DNA of 64,000 bases from NCBI GenBank assembly GCA_947168655.1, contig CAMVMU010000001.1, positions 1-64,000 on the forward strand. The letters run 5' to 3'. The position numbers and the translations under genes are program-made. The DNA comes from an uncultured Oscillospiraceae bacterium. GTDB lineage: Bacteria > Bacillota > Clostridia > Oscillospirales > Oscillospiraceae. The notes beneath the pieces were generated by a model. It did no database searches. It saw nothing but the letters and a program-made list of their open reading frames with translations, and was not told the DNA's origin. Position 1 is the stretch's first letter. The number at the start of each line of letters is the position of its first letter. Shown here in pieces: positions 3,001 to 14,829 of the stretch.

Positions 3001-6000
3001 GTGTGCGAATCACACAGTTATCAATTGAAGTGATTTCAGCGGGAACACGGGTATAGCTGATGGTCTGCTCGCCCCAGTCCTTGTTGCTGTTCGTCGTATT
3101 CTGCCAGGAGGTTCCGGCAAAAATGGATGCGCCGGAGTACAGACGCATGGAGTGTCGCGTCACATAAGGGCCATAGGTGTAATTGACCAGCGCATTTTGC
3201 TTGCCTACGATCTCACTGTTTTTCAGGGAGACGATCCTTCCCATGTTCTTGAAGGCATAGATACCGGAGGATTCAATATGGACATTGTCCATCAGATCGA
3301 TGGTCGGGATATCATAGGAGTAGGTATAGTCGTACCGTGTTGCGATACCGCTCTCGACCGTCAGGAACGGGGCGGCGTAATTTGTGTTGCGCTCAAGCGT
3401 ATAGCCGCTCTGCCTGGAATCGCCATTCAGGCACAGCGGATAATCCGCTGTGCTGTAAGGTGTAGCATTGGCAGCCAACCCGATGTTTACATTCGATATC
3501 GAGCCGATATGCCCCTGATTCTGCAGTGCGTAATAACCCTTGGAGCCGGTATTCTGCAGTGTTACACCGCTGATACTGTCAATGACGCCGCCCTTTTCCA
3601 GATTTCTGGTATAGATCTCAACGCGCTTTGTCTCGGTGGATGCGGTGGTGTTATCGGTATACGTTCTGGTATAGTCATAGCTGCTCAACGCGCCGGAACC
3701 GGAGTTCAGAATACCGTAATAGCGCGCGGATATCGTCACACCGCCCGTAATGCTGCCAATATGGCCGCTGTTGAAAATACCGTAAGTGGACGTCGCGTGG
3801 ATCGTGCCGCTGCAGGATATCGTACCAATCTCGGAAGGCTGACCGTAGGTCGTGTTGTTGTGAAGCTGTACGCCGCCGATTTTGTCACTGTAGGTGTTAA
3901 CCGTCTTGGCAGTAAACTGACCGTCATTATAGATGGCGGAGTTTCCGCTGGCCGAAATATCCACTGTTCCGGTAATGTTGTGGATGATACCGCCGGCGGT
4001 GTTGCGCAGAGCATAGTTGGAGGCAATGCTCTTGGCATTATTGGGATGCTTATAGGTCTTGATCTCCGTGGTTCCGCTGATGGTTCCGATGACACCGCCG
4101 TTGTTATACAGGGCGCAGCCGTGATCGGCACTGGTGCCGGTGTTTTCGGCATAGATGCGGCAGTCGGTGATGGTGCCGATAGTGGGACGGCAGGATACAT
4201 CCTCCTTGTACTCATCGGTGCGGGTCAATCCACTGTCAGTACGTTTCCAGACAGCAGTGTCATACCACCAGGCGTTGTTATTGTAGACGGTGTAGCACTG
4301 AACGTTGCCCTGAACATTGGCCGCCGTGGTACCATAGGTGTTGACCTGGGCAGAGTCGGGGTGGGCAGTAAAGGTGCAGTTGTTCAGTTCGGTGATCACG
4401 GCATTGTTGTGAATCGCGTACTGACCTGCGGTGATGGTGCTGTCCTTGATCAGGTCAATGGTACCGTAGTTGGCAATGTTGTAGCCCTGTGCAATGGTAT
4501 TGCTGCCGCGGACGTTGCGGTTATACATGCCGTAGGCGCAGTCCACCGTGCAGGAGTCCACAGTGCCGATATGCCCGCCGTAATTGAAGATGGCATAGCC
4601 GCGGGGAGAAAGCAACGTCACATTCTCCAGTGCGGTGATCGCACTTCTGTCGTTCAGAATCACGGACACGTAGCCGTTGACATCCTGCGTGTTCTCCAGG
4701 GTGACGTTCGAGACGCTCATGGTGCCGCCGGAAGTGTTACGGATGACCGCCGAGTGATTGGGAACACCTGCATTGCTGATAGCGTCTGCGGTGATCTTGC
4801 CGCCGCCGACGCTGTCCTGAACTGTCAGCGTCCCGCTGTTGGTGACGGCTGCCACGGCCTGATAGGCCGCCGCCGCAGCCGTTGCGCCGGTGTGGTAATC
4901 CCAGGTACCTCCGTTGAGTTCCAGGGTCATGGTACCCTTGTTGATCAAGCGGCCAACGGCGTGATGGCCGTCCAGGTCAACGGTCAGGTTCGTCGCCTCT
5001 GGGACAGGATAGGCAGCAGCGGCATTCTCTTCTTCAAAACTGCCGCAATCGGCGATTAGCCGAACGGTGCCCGTGCCGGATGAGGGCACAGCTTCCATTG
5101 CCTCTGCCAGCGTGGGATAGTATGCATCAGTGAAGCTATTGTAAGCCACTGCGCCGGTGTAGAAACCATAGATATACGTTTCTCCACCAGCCGTCTCACC
5201 CACAGGAACGCTGCCGGTGTAGGTATTGCCACTGGTGGCGGACACGCCGGAGAGGTTCCACACGATGCCGTTGTGCTTGTCAGCCGTGACACCCATGACG
5301 GCATCCGTCGGGGCAGCATAAGCCGCGCCGACCGCCAGAGCGGCGTCAGCCTTTGCAACCACATAATAAGTTTGGCCGTTAATGTTCCGGGTCTCGGTAA
5401 TGGTGTTGCCGGTGAAGAACCGATAGTTCTGGTACTGCTTTTCGCTGAGAACGAAAGTGGGAATAAACTGTGCCGCAGTACCGGTCAAAGTAACCGTCGT
5501 ATTGGACGTAACATTGGTCACATTGACGTTGGTGCCGCTGACGGCAACGCTGGCAGAACCGGAGGTCACGGACGCACCGAGGTTTGTCAGCCAGCTGGCG
5601 TCATAGGTCACGGTGTCGTTGTTCTCGCAGTAATAGCCCCTGGCGACGGACTTGTCGTTGTACACAAAGTCCACGAGGAAACGATACCAATGCTCGCCGT
5701 CCTTGTCATAGTACCAGGTGCTTGTCCCGGTGCCGGTTGTGGCGGAGTAGCTGTCGTCACCGTTGTGCAGCTTTGGAGCGGTAAAGGAAACGGCGGTTTT
5801 TGTGCTGTTTCCCTCCATCTCATAGATTGTCGAGGTGGCCGTAGGTGCTGTGCTGAAGACGATCCTGCCATTGGTGTCCTCCGTACCCTTGGAGCTGGTG
5901 ATATTGGCGCCGCCGTTGGAGGTAAACATGGAGCCGGCAACGGTCAGCGTACCGTTCACATCGATTTTCGCGTCATTCAGATTGGCCGCGGATCGCACCG

Positions 6001-7795
6001 CCGTCGTACCGTTGGCCACAGAATAGCCGATGGGGTACATTCTGGTGGAGCCGGAGAAATTGCCCCAATCGTCATTGTCATAAACGTAGACCTTCTTGCC
6101 GCTGTTGATCTTCAACTCTGCATTCCGGTCAATGACGATTTCCGTGGACGGCAGGAGTTCGATGTCCTGTGTAATAGATGTGGTTCCGCTGTGCAGGCCA
6201 ATACTGATGCTGCTTGTTATAGGCAAAATGTAATCATCAGTGGAAATACTGCCGATTATCGGCAGGCCGGTCAACGTCATAGGGGAAAGATTGACCGTTC
6301 CGTAAACGTCCACCTGCAGGCGATCTGTCGCCTCAATGTAGTCTTTGATAATGTAACCGTTGGACACAGTGAACATTCCACCGTTGCCCATAAATGTTGC
6401 GGACATCGTATATGCCGAGCCAGAAGCGTTGACGGCAGAGTACAACTTTTCCGATGCACCGGCATTCAGTTTCAGGGGAACCTCGATGTTCTGGATATAG
6501 TATTGATTAAAGATGAAGGCGTATTTATAGACATTGGACGTTGCCGTACCGCCGCGCCAGTCCTTGATCTGGAAGGCCTCGTAGACAGTGGAGCCGGATT
6601 TTGCCTCGACCTCGCCGTCGCCGTAGATATAGCCCCAACAGTAGAGGTTGGCGCCGCTGTTGAGGGTAATCTTGCTGCCGCCCAGCATTTTGATCCGCCC
6701 GTCGGGACCAGTGGGCGTACCGTTCCAGCCGCCCATCTGGCCAGAAGACGACAGCTTGCCGCTGAGGCAAATGGAACCACCGTTCTGAACGGTGATATTG
6801 GCCCCGGGGGCCATAGTGAGTGTACGGAAAGGAGTTGGGTTGGTATGGCTGCCATAGACAACAGCGGGCGTCGCCGTATAAACTGTTTGCGCTTCATCGA
6901 AGGGGATCAGCAGCGTGATGCCGCTGGGGATGGTATAGTTGCCCGCTGAAATTGTTCCGTTTGTAACAAGGGTGATTTTAGATTTGTTGTTACTTTGAGC
7001 ATAGCTAACAGCACTGTTCAGGTTATAAAACTGCTTGCCGGAAACATCAAATACGGCAACTGTATTGTCAACAAAGTAGGCGCTGACAGTCTGATCCTCT
7101 GTGAAAACGAGAGAAGCCGGCGTCTCCGAGCTGATCACGTTACTTGGGTCATTGTTGACGATCCAGCCGGCAAAACTATAGCCACTGGCAGGAGTTGCAA
7201 CAAGGCTGAAACTCTCCGTCGATTTCTTGGTAATGGTCTTGCTGTTGTTGATGACGATGTCATCAACAGTATATGAGCCATTCTCAGACGGCACGAATGT
7301 GATATTAACATTCTTTTCCGAAATAAGCTGAATGTTGGAAAGTGTAACCTTTGTTGTTTTTTCAGCCGTCTCGCAGGATTTGATATACACACTTACCGTT
7401 TCATTGGCAGCCAGCGCAAAGGAATACTCCCTGCTTCCTGCAATATTTCCATTGATCTGTATCACACCATCGTTTGTATCAGCCGTAACAGCAAACAACA
7501 GTGTCGCTTTACTTCCGCTGGTGTTCTTCAGCGTCAGTGTGCCTTCCGCGGCAGAGTAGTTGGTACCACCGCCGCAACCAGAAGACGACGTTGTTGTGAC
7601 TGATCCAGTAATCGTCGTACCGCTACGGCTCCAAGTGCCACTGTCATAAGAGGCGCTAAGTCCGGTTATTCCCGTATTAAGATCCGCCGCCCAGACGACC
7701 TGCGGGATAAAGGCAGCCATCATCAGCACGACCATCAGCAGGGACAGGCTGCGCTTCAATACGTTTTTAATCATTCTCGTTACCTCATTTCTCAT
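1..7795 (-). CDS. Giant secreted surface protein, beta-helix-like N-terminal part plus InlB/Flg_new-type repeats; 3' end beyond window
   Basis: Manual minus-strand translation from ATG 7795 (or 7774): MRNEVTRMIKNVLKRSLSLLMVVLMMAAFIPQVVWA-AD... is a clear signal peptide. I followed the open frame to position 1. It has many short 'HIGSIxN..I' turns, then FTVTFETNGGSNVESQQV...EGYSFVGWYSD..., then ~70-aa repeats YTVTWVNEDGTVLETDENVEYGTMPSYDGEIPTKEADAQYTYTFDKWTPEISEVTGNTTYKATY. Absent from the ORF track because there is no stop inside the window. Confidence 0.85.
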   Translation of the reverse strand, partial: MRNEVTRMIKNVLKRSLSLLMVVLMMAAFIPQVVWAADLNTGITGLSASYDSGTWSRSGTTITGSVTTTSSSGCGGGTNYSAAEGTLTLKNTSGSKATLLFAVTADTNDGVIQINGNIAGSREYSFALAANETVSVYIKSCETAEKTTKVTLSNIQLISEKNVNITFVPSENGSYTVDDIVINNSKTITKKSTESFSLVATPASGYSFAGWIVNNDPSNVISSETPASLVFTEDQTVSAYFVDNTVAVFDVSGKQFYNLNSAVSYAQSNNKSKITLVTNGTISAGNYTIPSGITLLIPFDEAQTVYTATPAVVYGSHTNPTPFRTLTMAPGANITVQNGGSICLSGKLSSSGQMGGWNGTPTGPDGRIKMLGGSKITLNSGANLYCWGYIYGDGEVEAKSGSTVYEAFQIKDWRGGTATSNVYKYAFIFNQYYIQNIEVPLKLNAGASEKLYSAVNASGSAYTMSATFMGNGGMFTVSNGYIIKDYIEATDRLQVDVYGTVNLSPMTLTGLPIIGSISTDDYILPITSSISIGLHSGTTSITQDIELLPSTEIVIDRNAELKINSGKKVYVYDNDDWGNFSGSTRMYPIGYSVANGTTAVRSAANLNDAKIDVNGTLTVAGSMFTSNGGANITSSKGTEDTNGRIVFSTAPTATSTIYEMEGNSTKTAVSFTAPKLHNGDDSYSATTGTGTSTWYYDKDGEHWYRFLVDFVYNDKSVARGYYCENNDTVTYDASWLTNLGASVTSGSASVAVSGTNVNVTNVTSNTTVTLTGTAAQFIPTFVLSEKQYQNYRFFTGNTITETRNINGQTYYVVAKADAALAVGAAYAAPTDAVMGVTADKHNGIVWNLSGVSATSGNTYTGSVPVGETAGGETYIYGFYTGAVAYNSFTDAYYPTLAEAMEAVPSSGTGTVRLIADCGSFEEENAAAAYPVPEATNLTVDLDGHHAVGRLINKGTMTLELNGGTWDYHTGATAAAAAYQAVAAVTNSGTLTVQDSVGGGKITADAISNAGVPNHSAVIRNTSGGTMSVSNVTLENTQDVNGYVSVILNDRSAITALENVTLLSPRGYAIFNYGGHIGTVDSCTVDCAYGMYNRNVRGSNTIAQGYNIANYGTIDLIKDSTITAGQYAIHNNAVITELNNCTFTAHPDSAQVNTYGTTAANVQGNVQCYTVYNNNAWWYDTAVWKRTDSGLTRTDEYKEDVSCRPTIGTITDCRIYAENTGTSADHGCALYNNGGVIGTISGTTEIKTYKHPNNAKSIASNYALRNTAGGIIHNITGTVDISASGNSAIYNDGQFTAKTVNTYSDKIGGVQLHNNTTYGQPSEIGTISCSGTIHATSTYGIFNSGHIGSITGGVTISARYYGILNSGSGALSSYDYTRTYTDNTTASTETKRVEIYTRNLEKGGVIDSISGVTLQNTGSKGYYALQNQGHIGSISNVNIGLAANATPYSTADYPLCLNGDSRQSGYTLERNTNYAAPFLTVESGIATRYDYTYSYDIPTIDLMDNVHIESSGIYAFKNMGRIVSLKNSEIVGKQNALVNYTYGPYVTRHSMRLYSGASIFAGTSWQNTTNSNKDWGEQTISYTRVPAEITSIDNCVIRTPADTYALRNGGHIGTIKNSTITAGSTTAKGYALYNGDSRVLSYSINLEDWVTVVANAATSNRVYFGMNGQSKVITYDYDRPTIDLIGEGNSFQATTPVIENRGDIVAIDSGSGTVTTVNGSGAKGIAIYSNTGTLNTRITTTPYTAASESPGNGTAGTVTNTDTYLNAHIGSIKNTVITTNGIGIQNGSNNATYLPTIDELGEGLEINANCTTAEYHAVYNTANARIANITGGIYTAAKATNNAYKNNNTNPEHATLISGGDFKGASSTRANAIYEPDNTNRQTYPEGKTLVGTRSAAFHNGTSADGYYFIGNSFTVTFETNGGSNVESQQVAQGQTVVKPNDPNREGYSFVGWYSDDGLTEAYDFTSPVNGDLTLYAKWEQDSISYTVRFFMDDGKTQIGEDQSVTEGSTPNVPADPTKAADAQYTYTFKGWKVKGTDDSTASKELPTITADTDFVAVFTQTVNEYTVTWVNDDGTVLETDENVAYGEMPVYSGATPTKEGDAQYTYTFDKWTPEIAVVTGDATYTATFTRTVNTYTVTWVNEDGTVLETDENVEYGTMPSYDGEIPTKEADAQYTYTFDKWTPEISEVTGNTTYKATYSSVVNTYTVTWVIDGVSETQEYAYGAMPYHADPIKEADAQYTYSFEKWTPEIAAVTGDATYTATFVSTKRSYTITFVNDDGSVLSRESYEYGTPAASIERPTNPTKEPTDEFIYSFAGWSPEVGPVMEDATYTATYTSAKRTYTIRFVNEDDTVLQSGKVAYGEMPVYSGATPTKEGDAQYTYTFDKWTPEIAVVTGDATYTATFTRTVNTYTVTWVNEDGTVLETDENVEYGTMPSYDGEIPTKEADAQYTYTFDKWTPEISEVTGNTTYKATYSSVVNTYTVTWIINGEIEMQKYLYGEMPMHADPTKPADSQYSYSFTGWRPKITIVTANATYEAQFSETVNKYTVTWIIDGETETEEYEYGAMPSHADPVKAPTAQYTYTFTGWTPTITSVTGDAT
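345..721 (-). repeat. Intragenic near-identical repeat, copy 1 (two InlB-like modules)
   Basis: Sequence from cacgtcaccgtgtacgtgttcaccacgctgg to gggcatttcgccatagg recurs 825 bp further on, nearly identical (gtcggcgtcgcg vs gtcggcgttgcg noted). Confidence 0.85.
1170..1546 (-). repeat. Intragenic near-identical repeat, copy 2 (two InlB-like modules)
   Basis: In-frame (825 bp = 275 codons) duplicate of 345..721. Confidence 0.85.
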
Positions 7796-10081: not shown

Positions 10082-10669
10082 TCACTCTTTTGAATCTTCC
10101 AGTTCTTTCAACCGGCGTATCTCTTCCTTGATATCATCCAGTTTCTTATCGTCCTCCGCCCGTTCCTTCCGCCAGGACAGGCTCACCAGCGCGGCAATCA
10201 GCACGATAACCAGAACGGAACCCAACGTGCTCTGCAACAGACGAACCGGCAGGCCCAGATACGGAACGGCAAACGCCATGCGGCCTTTCACAGCAGACAG
10301 GGAAACGGGATCATCCTCGGTGTTGTTTGCATCGCCTTTGGTGACCACATACTCGTCCTCCACACGGACGATGCGGTGGATCACAAGGCTGCTGCCGGAC
10401 TGGTATACCACTACATCACCCTCGGCATAGGACCCTGCTGCACGCACAATGACCAGGTCATTGACGGAAAGCGTGGGTTCCATGCTGCCGGACAGAACCA
10501 CCGAGGCGCCGACGCCAAAAGGCATGGGCAGCGCGTTGCGCATGACGCGGCGAGCGTTGAGGGAATAGACGCTGCCGCCGAGGAACACGCTGAGGAGCAC
10601 AATCAGTACGATGCGATAGATCAGGCGACCGGTTCTTCTGTTTTTATTATCCGGATCAGTCGTCTTCAT
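10082..10669 (-). CDS. sipW: Signal peptidase I, SipW/archaeal-ER type (Ser/His)
   Basis: MKTTDPDNKNRRTGRLIYRIVLIVLLSVFLGGSVYSL...VVLSGSMEPTLSVNDLVIV...VIHRIVRVEDEYVVTKGDANNTEDDPV: SGSMEPT serine box and HR(I/V)V histidine box. Start overlaps the upstream gene by 14 bp. Confidence 0.85.
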   Translation of the reverse strand: MKTTDPDNKNRRTGRLIYRIVLIVLLSVFLGGSVYSLNARRVMRNALPMPFGVGASVVLSGSMEPTLSVNDLVIVRAAGSYAEGDVVVYQSGSSLVIHRIVRVEDEYVVTKGDANNTEDDPVSLSAVKGRMAFAVPYLGLPVRLLQSTLGSVLVIVLIAALVSLSWRKERAEDDKKLDDIKEEIRRLKELEDSKE

Positions 10670-11624
10670 CGGTCTTTTTCCTGTTGCGGCGCATGAGGAA
10701 CAACAGCACGACAATTCCGACCAATGCGGCACCTGCAATGCCGCCCCATAGGTACAGGCGGGCGTTATCACCGGTGGGAACGGGCTCCTCCTCATCCACA
10801 CAGGCCAGTGTACGGATGATGATGTGGAGCGTCAGATCCTCGTCCACTGCCAGATTGCCCAGCATGGTGTCATAGGCGTCGTTGCTGTCCAGCCCATCGC
10901 CATCGAACCGTTCAAAGGGCCAGCGCCAATCCAAGGTGTAGACGTAGTGGCGGCCGGAATCGATCTTGCCATCCTCCCGGTAGCCATCCAGTTCCAGCAC
11001 GTCAGGCCACTCCTCTGCGGAGCCCACCACGTAGCCGCCGGGGCTGCGGCTCAGGCGGCCCTCAATGGGGATCCACAGACCGTTGGTGTTCTCATAGAAC
11101 GCCTCCACGGTGAGGATGTAGTCCAGATTATACTTGCCGTCGTTGGCGAGAGTGAACTCATAGGTCTGCTCCGTGCCGGGGGCAAAGACATTGTCACCTT
11201 TCTCAGAATTAACGGTGATTTCGGCCTGTCCGTTCTTGTAGCTGACGCTGAAAATGTCAATATCCGTCTGCGTCGACCAGACCTGATCCTTGTCGTAGAC
11301 GCTGAAACCGGTCTTATTCTCCGCCAGGCGCACCGGATTCATTCCGCCGCTGCTGGCTGCCAGAAAGACAGGCCTCATCGTTGAGCCATGAGCGGCCGTT
11401 CTGATGAAGTTGCCGTTTTCGTCCACGCGTCCAACTTGTACGGTACCATTGGCAGACCCCTCGGTGAGAGAGATATACGTACCCTTATGGCCTGTGGTGA
11501 AGGTCGTCAGCTGGGAGAACAGCATCGAAATAGAGCATATTTCCAGTACGACCAAAAGCACGACCAGGATCACAAGGCCGGAGCTACGGCCTTTTTGTTT
11601 GCGAAGGGAAGCATAATCATTCAT
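10656..11624 (-). CDS. TasA-like protein with two TM segments and a PTGDN-type C-terminal anchor-like tail
   Basis: MNDYASLRKQKGRSSGLVILVVLLVVLEICSISMLF...TLDWRWPFERFDGDGLDSNDAYDTMLGNLAVDEDLTLHIIIRTLA...EEPVPTGDNARLYLWGGIAGAALVGIVVLLFLMRRNRKK. RBS GGAGGAGCTCGC before ATG 11624. Confidence 0.65.
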   Translation of the reverse strand: MNDYASLRKQKGRSSGLVILVVLLVVLEICSISMLFSQLTTFTTGHKGTYISLTEGSANGTVQVGRVDENGNFIRTAAHGSTMRPVFLAASSGGMNPVRLAENKTGFSVYDKDQVWSTQTDIDIFSVSYKNGQAEITVNSEKGDNVFAPGTEQTYEFTLANDGKYNLDYILTVEAFYENTNGLWIPIEGRLSRSPGGYVVGSAEEWPDVLELDGYREDGKIDSGRHYVYTLDWRWPFERFDGDGLDSNDAYDTMLGNLAVDEDLTLHIIIRTLACVDEEEPVPTGDNARLYLWGGIAGAALVGIVVLLFLMRRNRKKTDEDD

Positions 11625-11712
11625 GCGAGCTCCTCCATTCTGAATGTTGTTTTGCGCTTGCAAATGCCCGCGGGATCCGTGGGGATTTGCAAATACAAAA
11701 CCGGGAAACGGA

Positions 11713-11749
11713 GATTGCCCCCGCCCCGCCACGTTGAGCGGGGGCAATC
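11713..11749 (-). terminator. Intergenic hairpin after the first TasA-like gene (partial terminator or 3' stabiliser)
   Basis: gattgcccccgc / gcgggggcaatc perfect 12-bp stem, 13-nt loop; only a weak T run follows on the minus strand. Confidence 0.55.
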
Positions 11750-11816
11750 CGTTATGACTTGTTCAGCCGTTGATCGACAGAGCGCAGTTCCTTATATGTA
11801 ATAAGGTGTGCTGCAA

Positions 11817-12766
11817 TCAGTCGATCTGGGTAGCGGTGGCAATCAGAGTAGCAGCGATAGTGGTGCTGGCGTTATCGTCAGTGACAACGCCGGCAGCAAC
11901 GTTGCCCAGGTAGGTGTCAGCAGCGTCATACAGTGCAACGTTCTCCTGCTCGAAAGCCCAAGCCCAGGACAGAGTGAACGTGAAGTCCATCTCCTTGTTG
12001 GGATCGAAGTCATAGGACAGCTTGAAGGTGCCGGCATCCTTGTCGGCCTCCAGCTCAAAGTTGCGGCCGCCGGACACGATATTGCCCAGGGCAGTCTCAA
12101 CGATGTTCTTGTAACCCTCGTTGCCGGCAACCTTCTGGATAATGGTAATGGCATCAAAGATGGAGCAGCCCTCGCGGGTCAGGCCATAGGCCTCAGCCTG
12201 AGCAAGGTTGGCAGCGGGCAGATTGTCATACAGGGCGGTTGCGACGTCCAGGGTCTTACCCTTGCCCTCGATGACCATGTTCCACTTGATGGGAGCATAG
12301 TCCTTGTCCAGGGTGAAGGTATCGGTGTAGCCGTAGGTACCGTCATTGGCCTTCACCAGATGGGTATAGTCGGTGTAGGTGCCGGCCTTCAGCACGACGT
12401 CCTCGATGCCGGAGCCTTCCATGGTGTAGCGGGCAGCGACCTCGGGCGTACCCGTTACAGAGCCCACCAGGTTGGCGCCGACCTCTTCGGAGCTGGTGCC
12501 GGGAGCGACAACCTGCTCGCCCTCGACGGAGCTGACGACGCTGTACTCGCCGCCGTCCTCTTTGTAGGCAGCATCGGTTGCAGCATACTTGTCAGCAAAG
12601 GCATTGCCGTCAACGGAAACCAGGACGCCCCACTTGGCGACGCGGGCCTGATCCTCGCCCTCGGCCTTGGTCACGTACTTGGCGAAGGTGCCGGAGATGG
12701 CGCAGGTGGAGATGAGAGTCAGAGCCAGCAGCACGGAAAAGACTCTCATAATGCGGTTCTTCTTCA
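11817..12766 (-). CDS. TasA/camelysin-like secreted protein, candidate major fibre subunit
   Basis: MKKNRIMRVFSVLLALTLISTCAISGTFAKYVTKAEGEDQARVAKWGV...: SipW-type leader ending TFAKY. C-terminal FTFTLSWAWAFEQENVALYDAADTYLGN...ATQID. RBS AGGAGAATTCAGA before ATG 12766. Confidence 0.7.
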
Positions 12767-12901
12767 TTCTGAATTCTCCTTTCATGTTTTGCCGCATGTG
12801 CGGCGGTTTCTTCTTCCCCCCTTGGGTGACACGCAGATCGCAGCTTCCGCGGTGGAAAGCACCGGTCCGCTTCTATCCCCGTCCCACTCCCGGGGGAGAA
12901 T

Positions 12902-12944
12902 GTATTATATTCGCCCCCGTCGTGGCTTGCGGGGGAAGAATACC
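12902..12944 (-). other. Imperfect intergenic hairpin between sipW and the first TasA-like gene
   Basis: gtattatattcgcccccgtcgtggcttgcgggggaagaatac; 6-bp CCCCCG/CGGGGG core with outer gtatt/aatac pairing. Confidence 0.4.
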
Positions 12945-12962
12945 TTTGTTACATGCCGGGGA

Positions 12963-13930: not shown

Positions 13931-13981
13931 GGGGCAAAAATACCGCACCAGGGGGACGCCCTGGTGCGGTATTTTTGCCCC
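13931..13981 (-). terminator. Strong intrinsic (bidirectional-capable) terminator
   Basis: Perfect 23-bp inverted repeat ggggcaaaaataccgcaccaggg-ggacg-ccctggtgcggtatttttgcccc directly after the 13999 gene. Confidence 0.85.
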
Positions 13982-13998: not shown

Positions 13999-14829
13999 TC
14001 AATGGCAGGCGCAGTAGTTGCGTGCGCTGGTGTAGTCGGTGGGCGTTTCCACCGTGTTGGGCGGGAAAAACTCGCTGACCGGGAAGGCCACGCTGCGGAA
14101 CAGGCCGCAGGGATCCTCCTGATCATTGCTGGGGCAGTCGGTCTGGGGGATGCAGTAGTCGTACACCGGGATCAGCAGCTGGGTATCCCGCTCCAGGCGA
14201 ACCAGAGAGAACTGACCAAGGGTCACGTAGTAGCGGCGTTCATCGCTGTTGTCGAAGACCAGCTCGCCGGAAAAACTCTCCGCGATGAAGGCGGGGATAT
14301 CCGTCAGCGGAACGTCGGTGCCGATGCTGCGATCGGCAATTCGGGTGTCCAGCACGATGGGATCCACGGCCTCCACCACCGCCACGGGAAGATTACTGCG
14401 CATGGCTCCGGGGATATCCAGCTCTTCCAAAACCGTGTCCGACGTGAAGATCTTGGCATTTCCCTCGCTGCCGAAGAGAATGCAGCGCTTGTCGAACACG
14501 CACAGGCCTTCAGCCTCGGTGTAGCGCGGCGCACCGGTGTAGACCTGCAGGTTGACGCGGTAGAAAAACCGCATATCAATAGAGTAAAAGCCCCGGTTAA
14601 AGGTCACCGGCTCCACATCGGTGTAGACATACAGCAGCTCCGCCGTGCCGCCCTTGACCATCTGAGACGTGTTGAGAATATCGCGTGCCTCAGCCGTGGG
14701 ATAAAATCGCAGGTCTTCGACGCAGTCCTTGTCACGGCAGCTGTCAAAGATCTTTCTCGTATGGATACAGACGGACTCGCGGATCTTCTCCAGATCGTCC
14801 ACCGGGCCCGGCATCACATTTTCAGGCAT
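13999..14829 (-). CDS. Conserved hypothetical Cys-containing protein (VCIHTRKIFDSCRDKDC motif)
   Basis: 276-aa ORF, N-terminal SCRDKDCVEDLRFYPT, C-terminal RNYCACH; no enzyme motif recognised. Confidence 0.6.
   Translation of the reverse strand: MPENVMPGPVDDLEKIRESVCIHTRKIFDSCRDKDCVEDLRFYPTAEARDILNTSQMVKGGTAELLYVYTDVEPVTFNRGFYSIDMRFFYRVNLQVYTGAPRYTEAEGLCVFDKRCILFGSEGNAKIFTSDTVLEELDIPGAMRSNLPVAVVEAVDPIVLDTRIADRSIGTDVPLTDIPAFIAESFSGELVFDNSDERRYYVTLGQFSLVRLERDTQLLIPVYDYCIPQTDCPSNDQEDPCGLFRSVAFPVSEFFPPNTVETPTDYTSARNYCACH

Follow-up and report, generated by a model that had tools for sequence, protein, structure and literature searches.

The stretch of DNA considered here, called the window, comprises positions 1-64,000 of contig CAMVMU010000001.1 (assembly GCA_947168655.1) from an uncultured Oscillospiraceae bacterium; all coordinates are those of the whole stretch, G numbers denote the genomes compared (G000 being the window's own genome) and L numbers the loci. 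Its minus strand carries what is read here, with slightly better than even confidence, as a SipW-type surface-fibre cassette, in which a fibre of the subunit P0002 would be tethered to the cell by an acceptor-only anchor, P0001, and a kissing pair of RNA hairpins, UP and DN, would stand around the subunit mRNA. The genes follow each other in the order SipW-type signal peptidase P0003, subunit P0002, anchor P0001, second SipW-type peptidase P0004 and small protein P0005, and this order of the first five genes (sipW1-subunit-anchor-sipW2-small protein) is maintained in more than 20 genomes. Judged by their sequences, subunit and anchor are homologous β-sandwich proteins in a conserved operon which also encodes the two peptidases and, in P0005, a smaller homologue. 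The wider proposition, for which our confidence falls a little short of even, is that of an undescribed cis RNA architecture: hairpins with complementary six-base loops would travel as a unit with a fibre-subunit cistron and keep its mRNA segment looped, raising expression of this one gene far beyond that of the rest of the operon, the fibre itself resting on an acceptor-only, membrane- or wall-anchored homologue.

The similarity between subunit and anchor lies far above chance. BLASTP of the two full proteins aligns the WxWxFE...DxxDTxLGN segment at E = 3e-5 (14 of 33 residues identical), and profile alignment by hhalign, 23 anchors against 20 subunits, gives 99.4% probability and E = 1.1e-21 over 136 columns; with the N-terminal signal and transmembrane (TM) segments removed the probability is still 99.2%, and reversed-sequence controls do not exceed 0.7%. 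A preliminary description of this DNA had claimed a C-terminal module common to both proteins; the similarity stands, but its restriction to the C terminus does not, the region in common running from an F...Y strand via APGT to DTxLG and thus covering most of the extracellular domain. Every one of the 20 subunits has APGT, WxW and DTxLG; of the 23 anchors, all have APGT and WxW, and 21 have DTxLG. The further claim of a polymer subunit with its wall or membrane anchor survives in part: a secreted SipW-type subunit is paired with a membrane-anchored homologue, the two adjoining in more than 20 genomes and accompanied by two SipW-type peptidases, whereas the accompanying analogy to TapA is not supported for the anchor.

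What sets the three homologues apart is the distribution of their strands. The mature N terminus A-K-Y ... A-R-V-A-K is common to 20/20 subunits (KYVTKAEGED.ARVAKWGV in P0002), and its A[KRE][YF] part recurs in 20/20 subunits and 18/18 small proteins, whereas the A[KR][YF] and ARVA motifs of this strand occur in 0/23 anchors. The APGT/WxW core of all subunits and anchors is found in no small protein, and the C-terminal QxD strand, present in subunits and small proteins, is absent from the anchors. By its profile, P0005 matches the subunits at 97.5% and BsaA-like proteins at 93%. The first eleven mature residues of TasA are its donor strand (PMC10151520, PMC9674648), and the N terminus of TapA is nearly identical to that of TasA and donates a strand as well (PMC10151520). 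By analogy we infer from these motifs a donor-strand logic, in which the subunit would be both donor and acceptor, the small protein donor only and the anchor acceptor only. Since the subunit-like N-terminal strand belongs to the small proteins and to none of the anchors, the role of TapA fits P0005 better than P0001.

Codon bias within the cassette is strongest in the subunit gene, as would be expected for a major structural protein: its effective number of codons is 28.9, and the other genes range over 41-58. An AlphaFold2 (AF2) model of P0002 reaches a predicted local distance difference test (pLDDT) score of 81 and a predicted template-modelling (pTM) score of 0.74, with residues 21-45 below a pLDDT of 50; the N-terminal strand, part of a segment conserved in 20/20 subunits, falls within these residues and has no confident position in the monomer. 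Covalent cross-linking through the invariant Lys 30 was weighed, since BsaA polymers resist sodium dodecyl sulfate (SDS), and was discarded, the equivalent residue being Arg in most small proteins. Between close species the subunit gene is mosaic: G025 (L110:3200-4177) and the window share 59% identity over the gene and 80-91% over sip1, leader and anchor, and the fall begins after the N-terminal strand, within the coding region, which suggests an exchange of the exposed part of the protein.

The anchor gene starts at the ATG at 11624 with its AGGAGG site, which replaces the TTG at 11747 chosen as the mechanical start of the open reading frame (ORF). The preliminary description had assigned a membrane/PTGDN tail to one of the two proteins, and this tail, EEPVPTGDNARLYLWGGIAGAALVGIVVLLFLMRRNRKK, is present together with the other strings quoted, both ORFs lying on the minus strand at the positions it had given. 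Hydrophobic helices mark both ends of 23/23 anchors, the C-terminal one with a hydropathy of at least 1.85 in all 23. Before this helix the window's anchor has no intact xPxTG and reads PVPTGD instead, a degenerate P[VI]PTGD motif that three species have in common, the window's and the two most closely related to it. The idea that it represents a sorting signal short of one residue is borne out by the homologues: xPxTG[D/E] is intact in 14 of the 23, including RPQTGD in a species of the same genus and LPKTGE in Enterococcus, and LPETGD is found in an additional homologue, L026, outside the 23. The motif is degenerate in the anchors of L120 and L122 and absent from those of L121, L124, L125 and L126, which keep the helix.

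Against TIGR01167 (cut-off 15.9) the window's anchor scores 13.9 bits as a protein and 18.3 bits when the genome frames are searched; sorting tails were counted across the genome by hidden Markov model (HMM) search. Two class-B-like sortases are encoded in the window's own genome, both retaining His and Cys at the expected places and neither inside the cassette; another candidate sortase substrate, with APDTGD, is encoded there as well. When the anchor was examined as an LPXTG-type substrate, the C-terminal hydrophobic helix, a basic tail and a sortase in the genome were all present, and nearly all genomes with these anchors contain sortases. Because the helices are found in every anchor, the motif varies and the genomic sortases are intact, membrane anchoring can be regarded as the constant feature and sortase attachment as the optional one. 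In the window species, where the motif is degenerate, the tether is therefore probably the membrane, with attachment to the wall also possible. Two of the anchors that are free of a sorting motif (L121:5809-7131 and L124:5740-7152) carry a conserved cytoplasmic extension of ~150 residues beyond the C-terminal helix.

The RNA hairpins sit in the gaps that flank the subunit gene, at 12768-12962 (UP) and 11625-11816 (DN). DN was first met in a terminator search, as a strong hairpin with constant loop that nearly every locus has between its subunit and anchor genes. In its stem, 14 of 14 pairs are changed on both sides, and its covariation of 0.557 compares with 0.203 ± 0.023 for shuffled alignments and 0.335 for the best slid version; in the stem of UP, 9 of 11 pairs are changed on both sides, with a covariation of 0.277 against 0.203 ± 0.017 after shuffling. 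Two covarying hairpins with complementary loops, as in a kissing-loop pair, are thus found. The constancy of GCCAC and GTGGC within the loops was built into the search. At the sixth position, which is variable, 28 of 29 loci form a pair (21 G-C, five G-U, two A-U) and one has an A-A mismatch, and the positions flanking the six-base loops on either side do not pair. The computed energy of the loop duplex is -9.3 kcal/mol. Rfam 15 returned only chance hits in the window between 9000 and 15000 and none at the gathering threshold in ten loci, and the bracket arrangement was found in none of the reference libraries searched.

The 5' leader of the subunit gene contains a further long-range helix, which closes it. 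A perfect complement of 7-12 bp is present in ~26 of 30 loci with differing sequences, for example TATTTATCCCTC/GAGGGATAAATA, and a few loci do no better than shuffles. This helix and the UP hairpin have overlapping 5' strands, giving competing pairings and hence possibly two mutually exclusive forms of the leader. A sigma-70 promoter immediately 5' of the subunit gene, suggested by a conserved AATATAA that follows the UP hairpin, was rejected: no matching -35 element was listed there, and in G112 the stretch in question lies well inside a leader.

The DN model (R1) picks the DN site in nearly every locus. Of 394 genomes, 11 have a site for the UP model (R2), always a single one; ten of these are cassettes in the model or their close kin, and in the window's own genome, which is part of the model, the UP hairpin is the only match. 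The eleventh genome, G112, is new: here an orphan subunit gene, located behind tRNA genes and with neither sipW nor anchor at its side, has UP before it and, as predicted, DN after it. A second new site outside the model is G823, whose subunit gene has both UP and DN. Neither RNA element occurs in L059, L061 and L128, in which no subunit gene lies between peptidase and anchor. Since the pair is present at the subunit genes of G112 and G823 and absent from these three loci, it follows the subunit gene. Two further hits of the UP model in G728 (27-29 bits), with neither GCCAC nor a subunit gene, were set aside as chance. In L027 (G038), four subunit paralogues are arranged in tandem behind a single sipW, and the RNA pair brackets the last one only, in a 399-bp gap. 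The G112 locus (L197, reverse complement 3880-4779) also shows a promoter-like TTGCAT...TGCTAATAT stretch resembling one upstream of the window's sipW1.

The relation to TasA is remote. Pfam PF12389 (TasA/camelysin) matches none of P0001, P0002 and P0005, nor anything else in the window's own genome, and scans of all members against Pfam and NCBIfam assigned neither subunit nor anchor to a family, such hits as there were being to sorting tails or below cut-off. With signal peptides removed, profile comparison with the M73/TasA type yields 83% (E = 9e-6) for the anchor and 89% for the small protein, reversed controls staying at 0.7% or below; a direct match of the subunit to TasA, significant only when the signal peptide is included, was not accepted as evidence. 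The cut-off of 60 for TIGR04090 (BsaA) is reached by none of the proteins, P0006 being the sole match (23.7 bits, E = 3.5e-5). A sequence search of the PDB produced no match, no TasA was among the top 50 Foldseek hits, and the Foldseek hits of the low-confidence anchor model, with low template-modelling scores, were dismissed as spurious. That the subunit works like TasA is plausible, that it is a TasA is not shown, and the homology suggested by the profiles would be a remote one.

From these observations the following sequence of events can be proposed. SipW1 would release the subunit P0002 and so free its N-terminal strand, KYVTKAEGED, which, as in TasA fibres, would enter the groove of the following subunit. 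The anchor, with an acceptor core and no donor strand, would take the strand of the first subunit and so form the cell-bound base of the fibre, a role suggested by its membrane helix at each end and by the sortase motif of most homologues. P0005, with a donor strand and no core, may start or cap the polymer in the manner of TapA. The subunit would be required in excess, which codon bias and the bracketed mRNA could provide: the loops 5' GCCACG and 3' CGUGGC probably form a kissing pair, closing and protecting the subunit segment of the operon mRNA, and the competing closing helix of the leader may switch this pair. Complementarity of the loops and covariation of the helices are observed; for the function, stabilization of the mRNA is favoured as a guess. 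Differential stability within an operon is a known means of setting stoichiometry (PMC5927463), and a protective kissing pair would serve the same end as the terminator with readthrough that follows the subunit gene in C. perfringens sipW-bsaA and sets the ratio there (PMC7395162).

For the proteins, the tethered fibre has to be weighed against other accounts. Were the anchor itself the equivalent of TapA, its N terminus would be cut by SipW2, and the protein would leave the membrane, donate a strand and nucleate the fibre. The gene of the second SipW-type peptidase does overlap the anchor gene, and TapA and TasA are likewise encoded beside SipW (PMC10151520); however, the lack of the donor-strand motif in all anchors, the C-terminal helix in 23/23 and the missing AXA-like site after the N-terminal helix of the window's anchor (read from the sequence) make this rather improbable. 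A sortase-built pilus, in which a pilin-type sortase links the subunits and the anchor serves as base pilin, would suit the xPxTG of 14/23 anchors and the sortases in nearly all these genomes. Yet the cassette loci searched contain no TLxTC (pilin-type) sortase ORF, no subunit bears a C-terminal sorting tail, the sortases of the window's genome are class-B-like, and in C. perfringens the neighbouring srtB is not needed for BsaA to form SDS-resistant polymers (PMC7395162); such a pilus is very unlikely. Finally, P0001 and P0002 could form no fibre at all and be ordinary membrane-bound and secreted immunoglobulin-like proteins, such as receptor and ligand, or an adhesin complex together with the giant protein in which the operon ends. 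This would agree with the subunit having no direct sequence or fold match to TasA, with collagen-adhesin domains among the top Foldseek hits and with the adhesin-like character of the giant protein, but the SipW linkage, the strand-motif split, the strong codon bias of the subunit gene and the fact that two of the three homologues match TasA/BsaA profiles remotely speak against it, and we regard it as unlikely.

For the bracket, the main rival to a kissing RNA pair is a role in DNA, UP and DN being inverted repeats that serve the exchange or inversion of the subunit cassette. As DNA the loops are indeed inverted repeats, subunit genes can be mosaic (G025), and the UP-subunit-DN unit also stands alone behind tRNA genes in G112. 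On the other hand, the flanking stems of UP and DN differ and covary as helices, the G-U at the variable position in five loci breaks the DNA identity and keeps the RNA pairing, an inverted subunit gene was found nowhere among the loci, and the mosaic block starts within the coding region after the N-terminal strand and not at the hairpins, so that DNA sites appear quite unlikely. The hairpins might also act separately, UP as a leader structure and DN as an attenuator or 3' stabilizer, with the loop complementarity due to coincidence or to binding of a common factor. In some loci, e.g. L117 and L120, DN does stand before a T-run, and C. perfringens has its readthrough terminator after bsaA (PMC7395162); but a T-run is missing at many DN hairpins, and a pair is indicated by the complementarity of exactly six bases at 28/29 loci, by a single solid double change and by the hairpins being present or absent jointly, which makes separate action doubtful.

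Several points weigh against the preferred reading of a tethered fibre with a kissing RNA pair. Polymerization is inferred from sequence, and the motif split on which the donor-strand logic draws was defined only after the alignments had been seen. The disordered N terminus in the monomer model is weak evidence for a donor strand, and the AF2 model of the anchor is poor (pLDDT 64). Compared directly with TasA, the subunit reaches 3% once its signal peptide is cut, and Foldseek returns generic β-sandwiches only, with no significant match for the subunit and with collagen-adhesin domains among the top hits. As for the RNA, the covariation of UP is modest and inflated by related sequences; five of the six loop positions are invariant, so that their pairing rests on complementarity. 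There is one solid double change between the loops (L055), a second (L063) falling in a doubtful UP element, and the sixth loop pair is lost in L124. Furthermore, the RNA pair is missing from Enterococcus (L129) and G181, both of which encode subunit and anchor; it is therefore not essential to the protein system.

Both peptidases exceed the cut-off (51.85) of the NCBIfam HMM for signal peptidases I of the endoplasmic reticulum (ER)/archaeal type, TIGR02228, with 98.5 bits for P0003 and 81.1 bits for P0004; the cut-off of 190 for the Bacillus SipW equivalog NF046067 is missed by both (90.5 and 61.8 bits). As read from the sequence, P0003 has its Ser in LTDSM and its His in LTHRV. A counterpart of P0003, sipW1, precedes the subunit gene in most cassettes, and the ATG of P0004 overlaps the stop of the anchor gene. 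On the same strand, 3' of P0005, follow the SipW-type protein P0006, a similar protein being next in most loci, the Lgt-like P0007 and the giant InlB-repeat protein P0009, which reaches the contig end and is likely an adhesin belonging to the same operon. A giant secreted ORF downstream of the cassette, preceded by a fourth SipW-type protein, occurs in at least 13 loci; the full-length giant protein of L024 ends without a sorting signal. The P0007 type, a relative of a lipoprotein-modifying enzyme found here beside fibre genes, is present in the cassette of the window's genus and also directly 3' of the orphan subunit gene in G112 (L197, reverse complement 6105-6782). A long perfect 20-bp hairpin at 13933-13979, which separates the cassette from the upstream gene (13999-14829), resembles a bidirectional terminator. 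A survey of the features is compiled in Table 1.

Table 1. Coordinates of genes, motifs and RNA elements of the cassette in the window.
Feature	Position	Strand	Description and basis
P0003	12963..13640	-	SipW-type (archaeal/ER-type, Ser-His) signal peptidase I, first of two; TIGR02228
UP RNA hairpin	12898..12946	-	5' untranslated region of subunit gene; loop GCCACG at 12921-12926; covariation
Long-range closing helix of 5' leader	12811..12940	-	TTCTTCCCCC (12931-12940) with GGGGGAAGAA (12811-12820); complementarity
P0002	11817..12767	-	Putative major fibre subunit, 316 residues; signal peptide ending GTFA; predicted β-sandwich core; C-terminal TATQID
Motif common to anchor, subunit copy	11901..11966	-	WAWAFEQENVALYDAADTYLGN; BLASTP; W.W and D[TN].LG in 20/20 subunits
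DN RNA hairpin	11710..11752	-	Subunit-anchor gap; loop CGTGGC (11728-11733) complementary to UP loop; covariation
P0001	10656..11624	-	Putative anchor, 322 residues; N-terminal hydrophobic helix 17-35; TasA-like extracellular domain ~115-276; C-terminal helix 292-310; RRNRKK tail
Motif common to subunit, anchor copy	10854..10928	-	WRWPFERFDGDGLDSNDAYDTMLGN; BLASTP, motif counts
Degenerate sorting motif	10767..10784	-	PVPTGD; homologues RPQTGD, PPQTGD, LPETGD and others
C-terminal membrane helix of anchor	10695..10751	-	Hydropathy 2.44 over 19 residues
P0004	10082..10669	-	Second SipW-type signal peptidase; TIGR02228; kept 3' of anchor
P0005	9568..10011	-	Small SipW-type protein; subunit-like N-terminal strand YARFVTRAQG; C-terminal QID; no APGT/WxW/DTxLG core
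P0006	8558..9553	-	Further secreted SipW-type protein; weak BsaA-family match
P0007	7792..8478	-	Lgt-like membrane protein; Pfam LGT 60.1 bits
P0009	1..7774	-	Giant secreted protein, InlB B-type repeats, incomplete at contig end; PF09479 3.4e-27

An order-wide search gave any match in 41 of 394 genomes, about ten of which have full-length anchors, and in the phylum as a whole only 5 of 300 genomes have the anchor. A GTDB-wide pattern scan returned metagenome-assembled genomes (MAGs) of rumen and gut Oscillospiraceae/Clostridia, one Eggerthellaceae MAG and Enterococcus sp. PF1-24, the cassette being only partial in Enterococcus. The Eggerthellaceae locus, L130, contains the entire cassette including the RNA bracket and stands in another phylum, which suggests horizontal transfer.

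The attachment of TasA-like fibres to the cell is an unsettled matter. Here the cassette would supply a dedicated base protein, and because this protein is homologous to the subunit, a simple rule of docking suggests itself. SipW-type fibres would also be extended, by way of two proteins outside any Pfam or NCBIfam family, to uncultured Oscillospiraceae of gut and rumen. The RNA bracket, if it acts as suggested, would be a compact genetic means to fix the ratio of subunit to anchor within one operon, and a new RNA family.

Among known systems, TasA-TapA-SipW of Bacillus subtilis resembles the cassette in its SipW-type peptidase, its secreted β-rich subunit with conserved mature N terminus and its accessory homologue sharing that N terminus, and anchor and small protein are remotely similar in profile to the M73/TasA family; two peptidases, a dedicated anchor with two TM helices and a sorting-like tail, a giant adhesin and the RNA bracket are the cassette's own, and its subunit lies outside PF12389. 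The sipW-bsaABCRSD operon of C. perfringens (PMC7395162, TIGR04090) likewise begins with sipW, followed by a subunit and two more secreted proteins; its transcript stops after the subunit with readthrough, which we count as a likeness, and P0006 and P0005 show weak to moderate similarity to the BsaA family. In contrast, BsaA has no predicted LPXTG-like motif, whereas the cassette has a separate anchor bearing one; the cassette has no two-component genes, and the cut-off of the BsaA HMM is not reached. With the LPXTG/PxTGD substrates of sortases (TIGR01167), 14 of the 23 anchors have motif, hydrophobic helix and basic tail in common, but the N-terminal helix of the anchor looks uncut, and the motif is degenerate in three close species and missing in several homologues. 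Chaperone-usher pili offer a parallel in structural logic only, with the proposed acceptor-only, donor-plus-acceptor and donor-only subunits; the cassette has neither chaperone nor usher and would be a Gram-positive, SipW-released system. Kissing-loop RNAs and programmed decay of operon mRNA (e.g. PMC5927463) share the complementary hairpin loops, whereas here a conserved pair in cis, outside any Rfam family, brackets a single structural gene.

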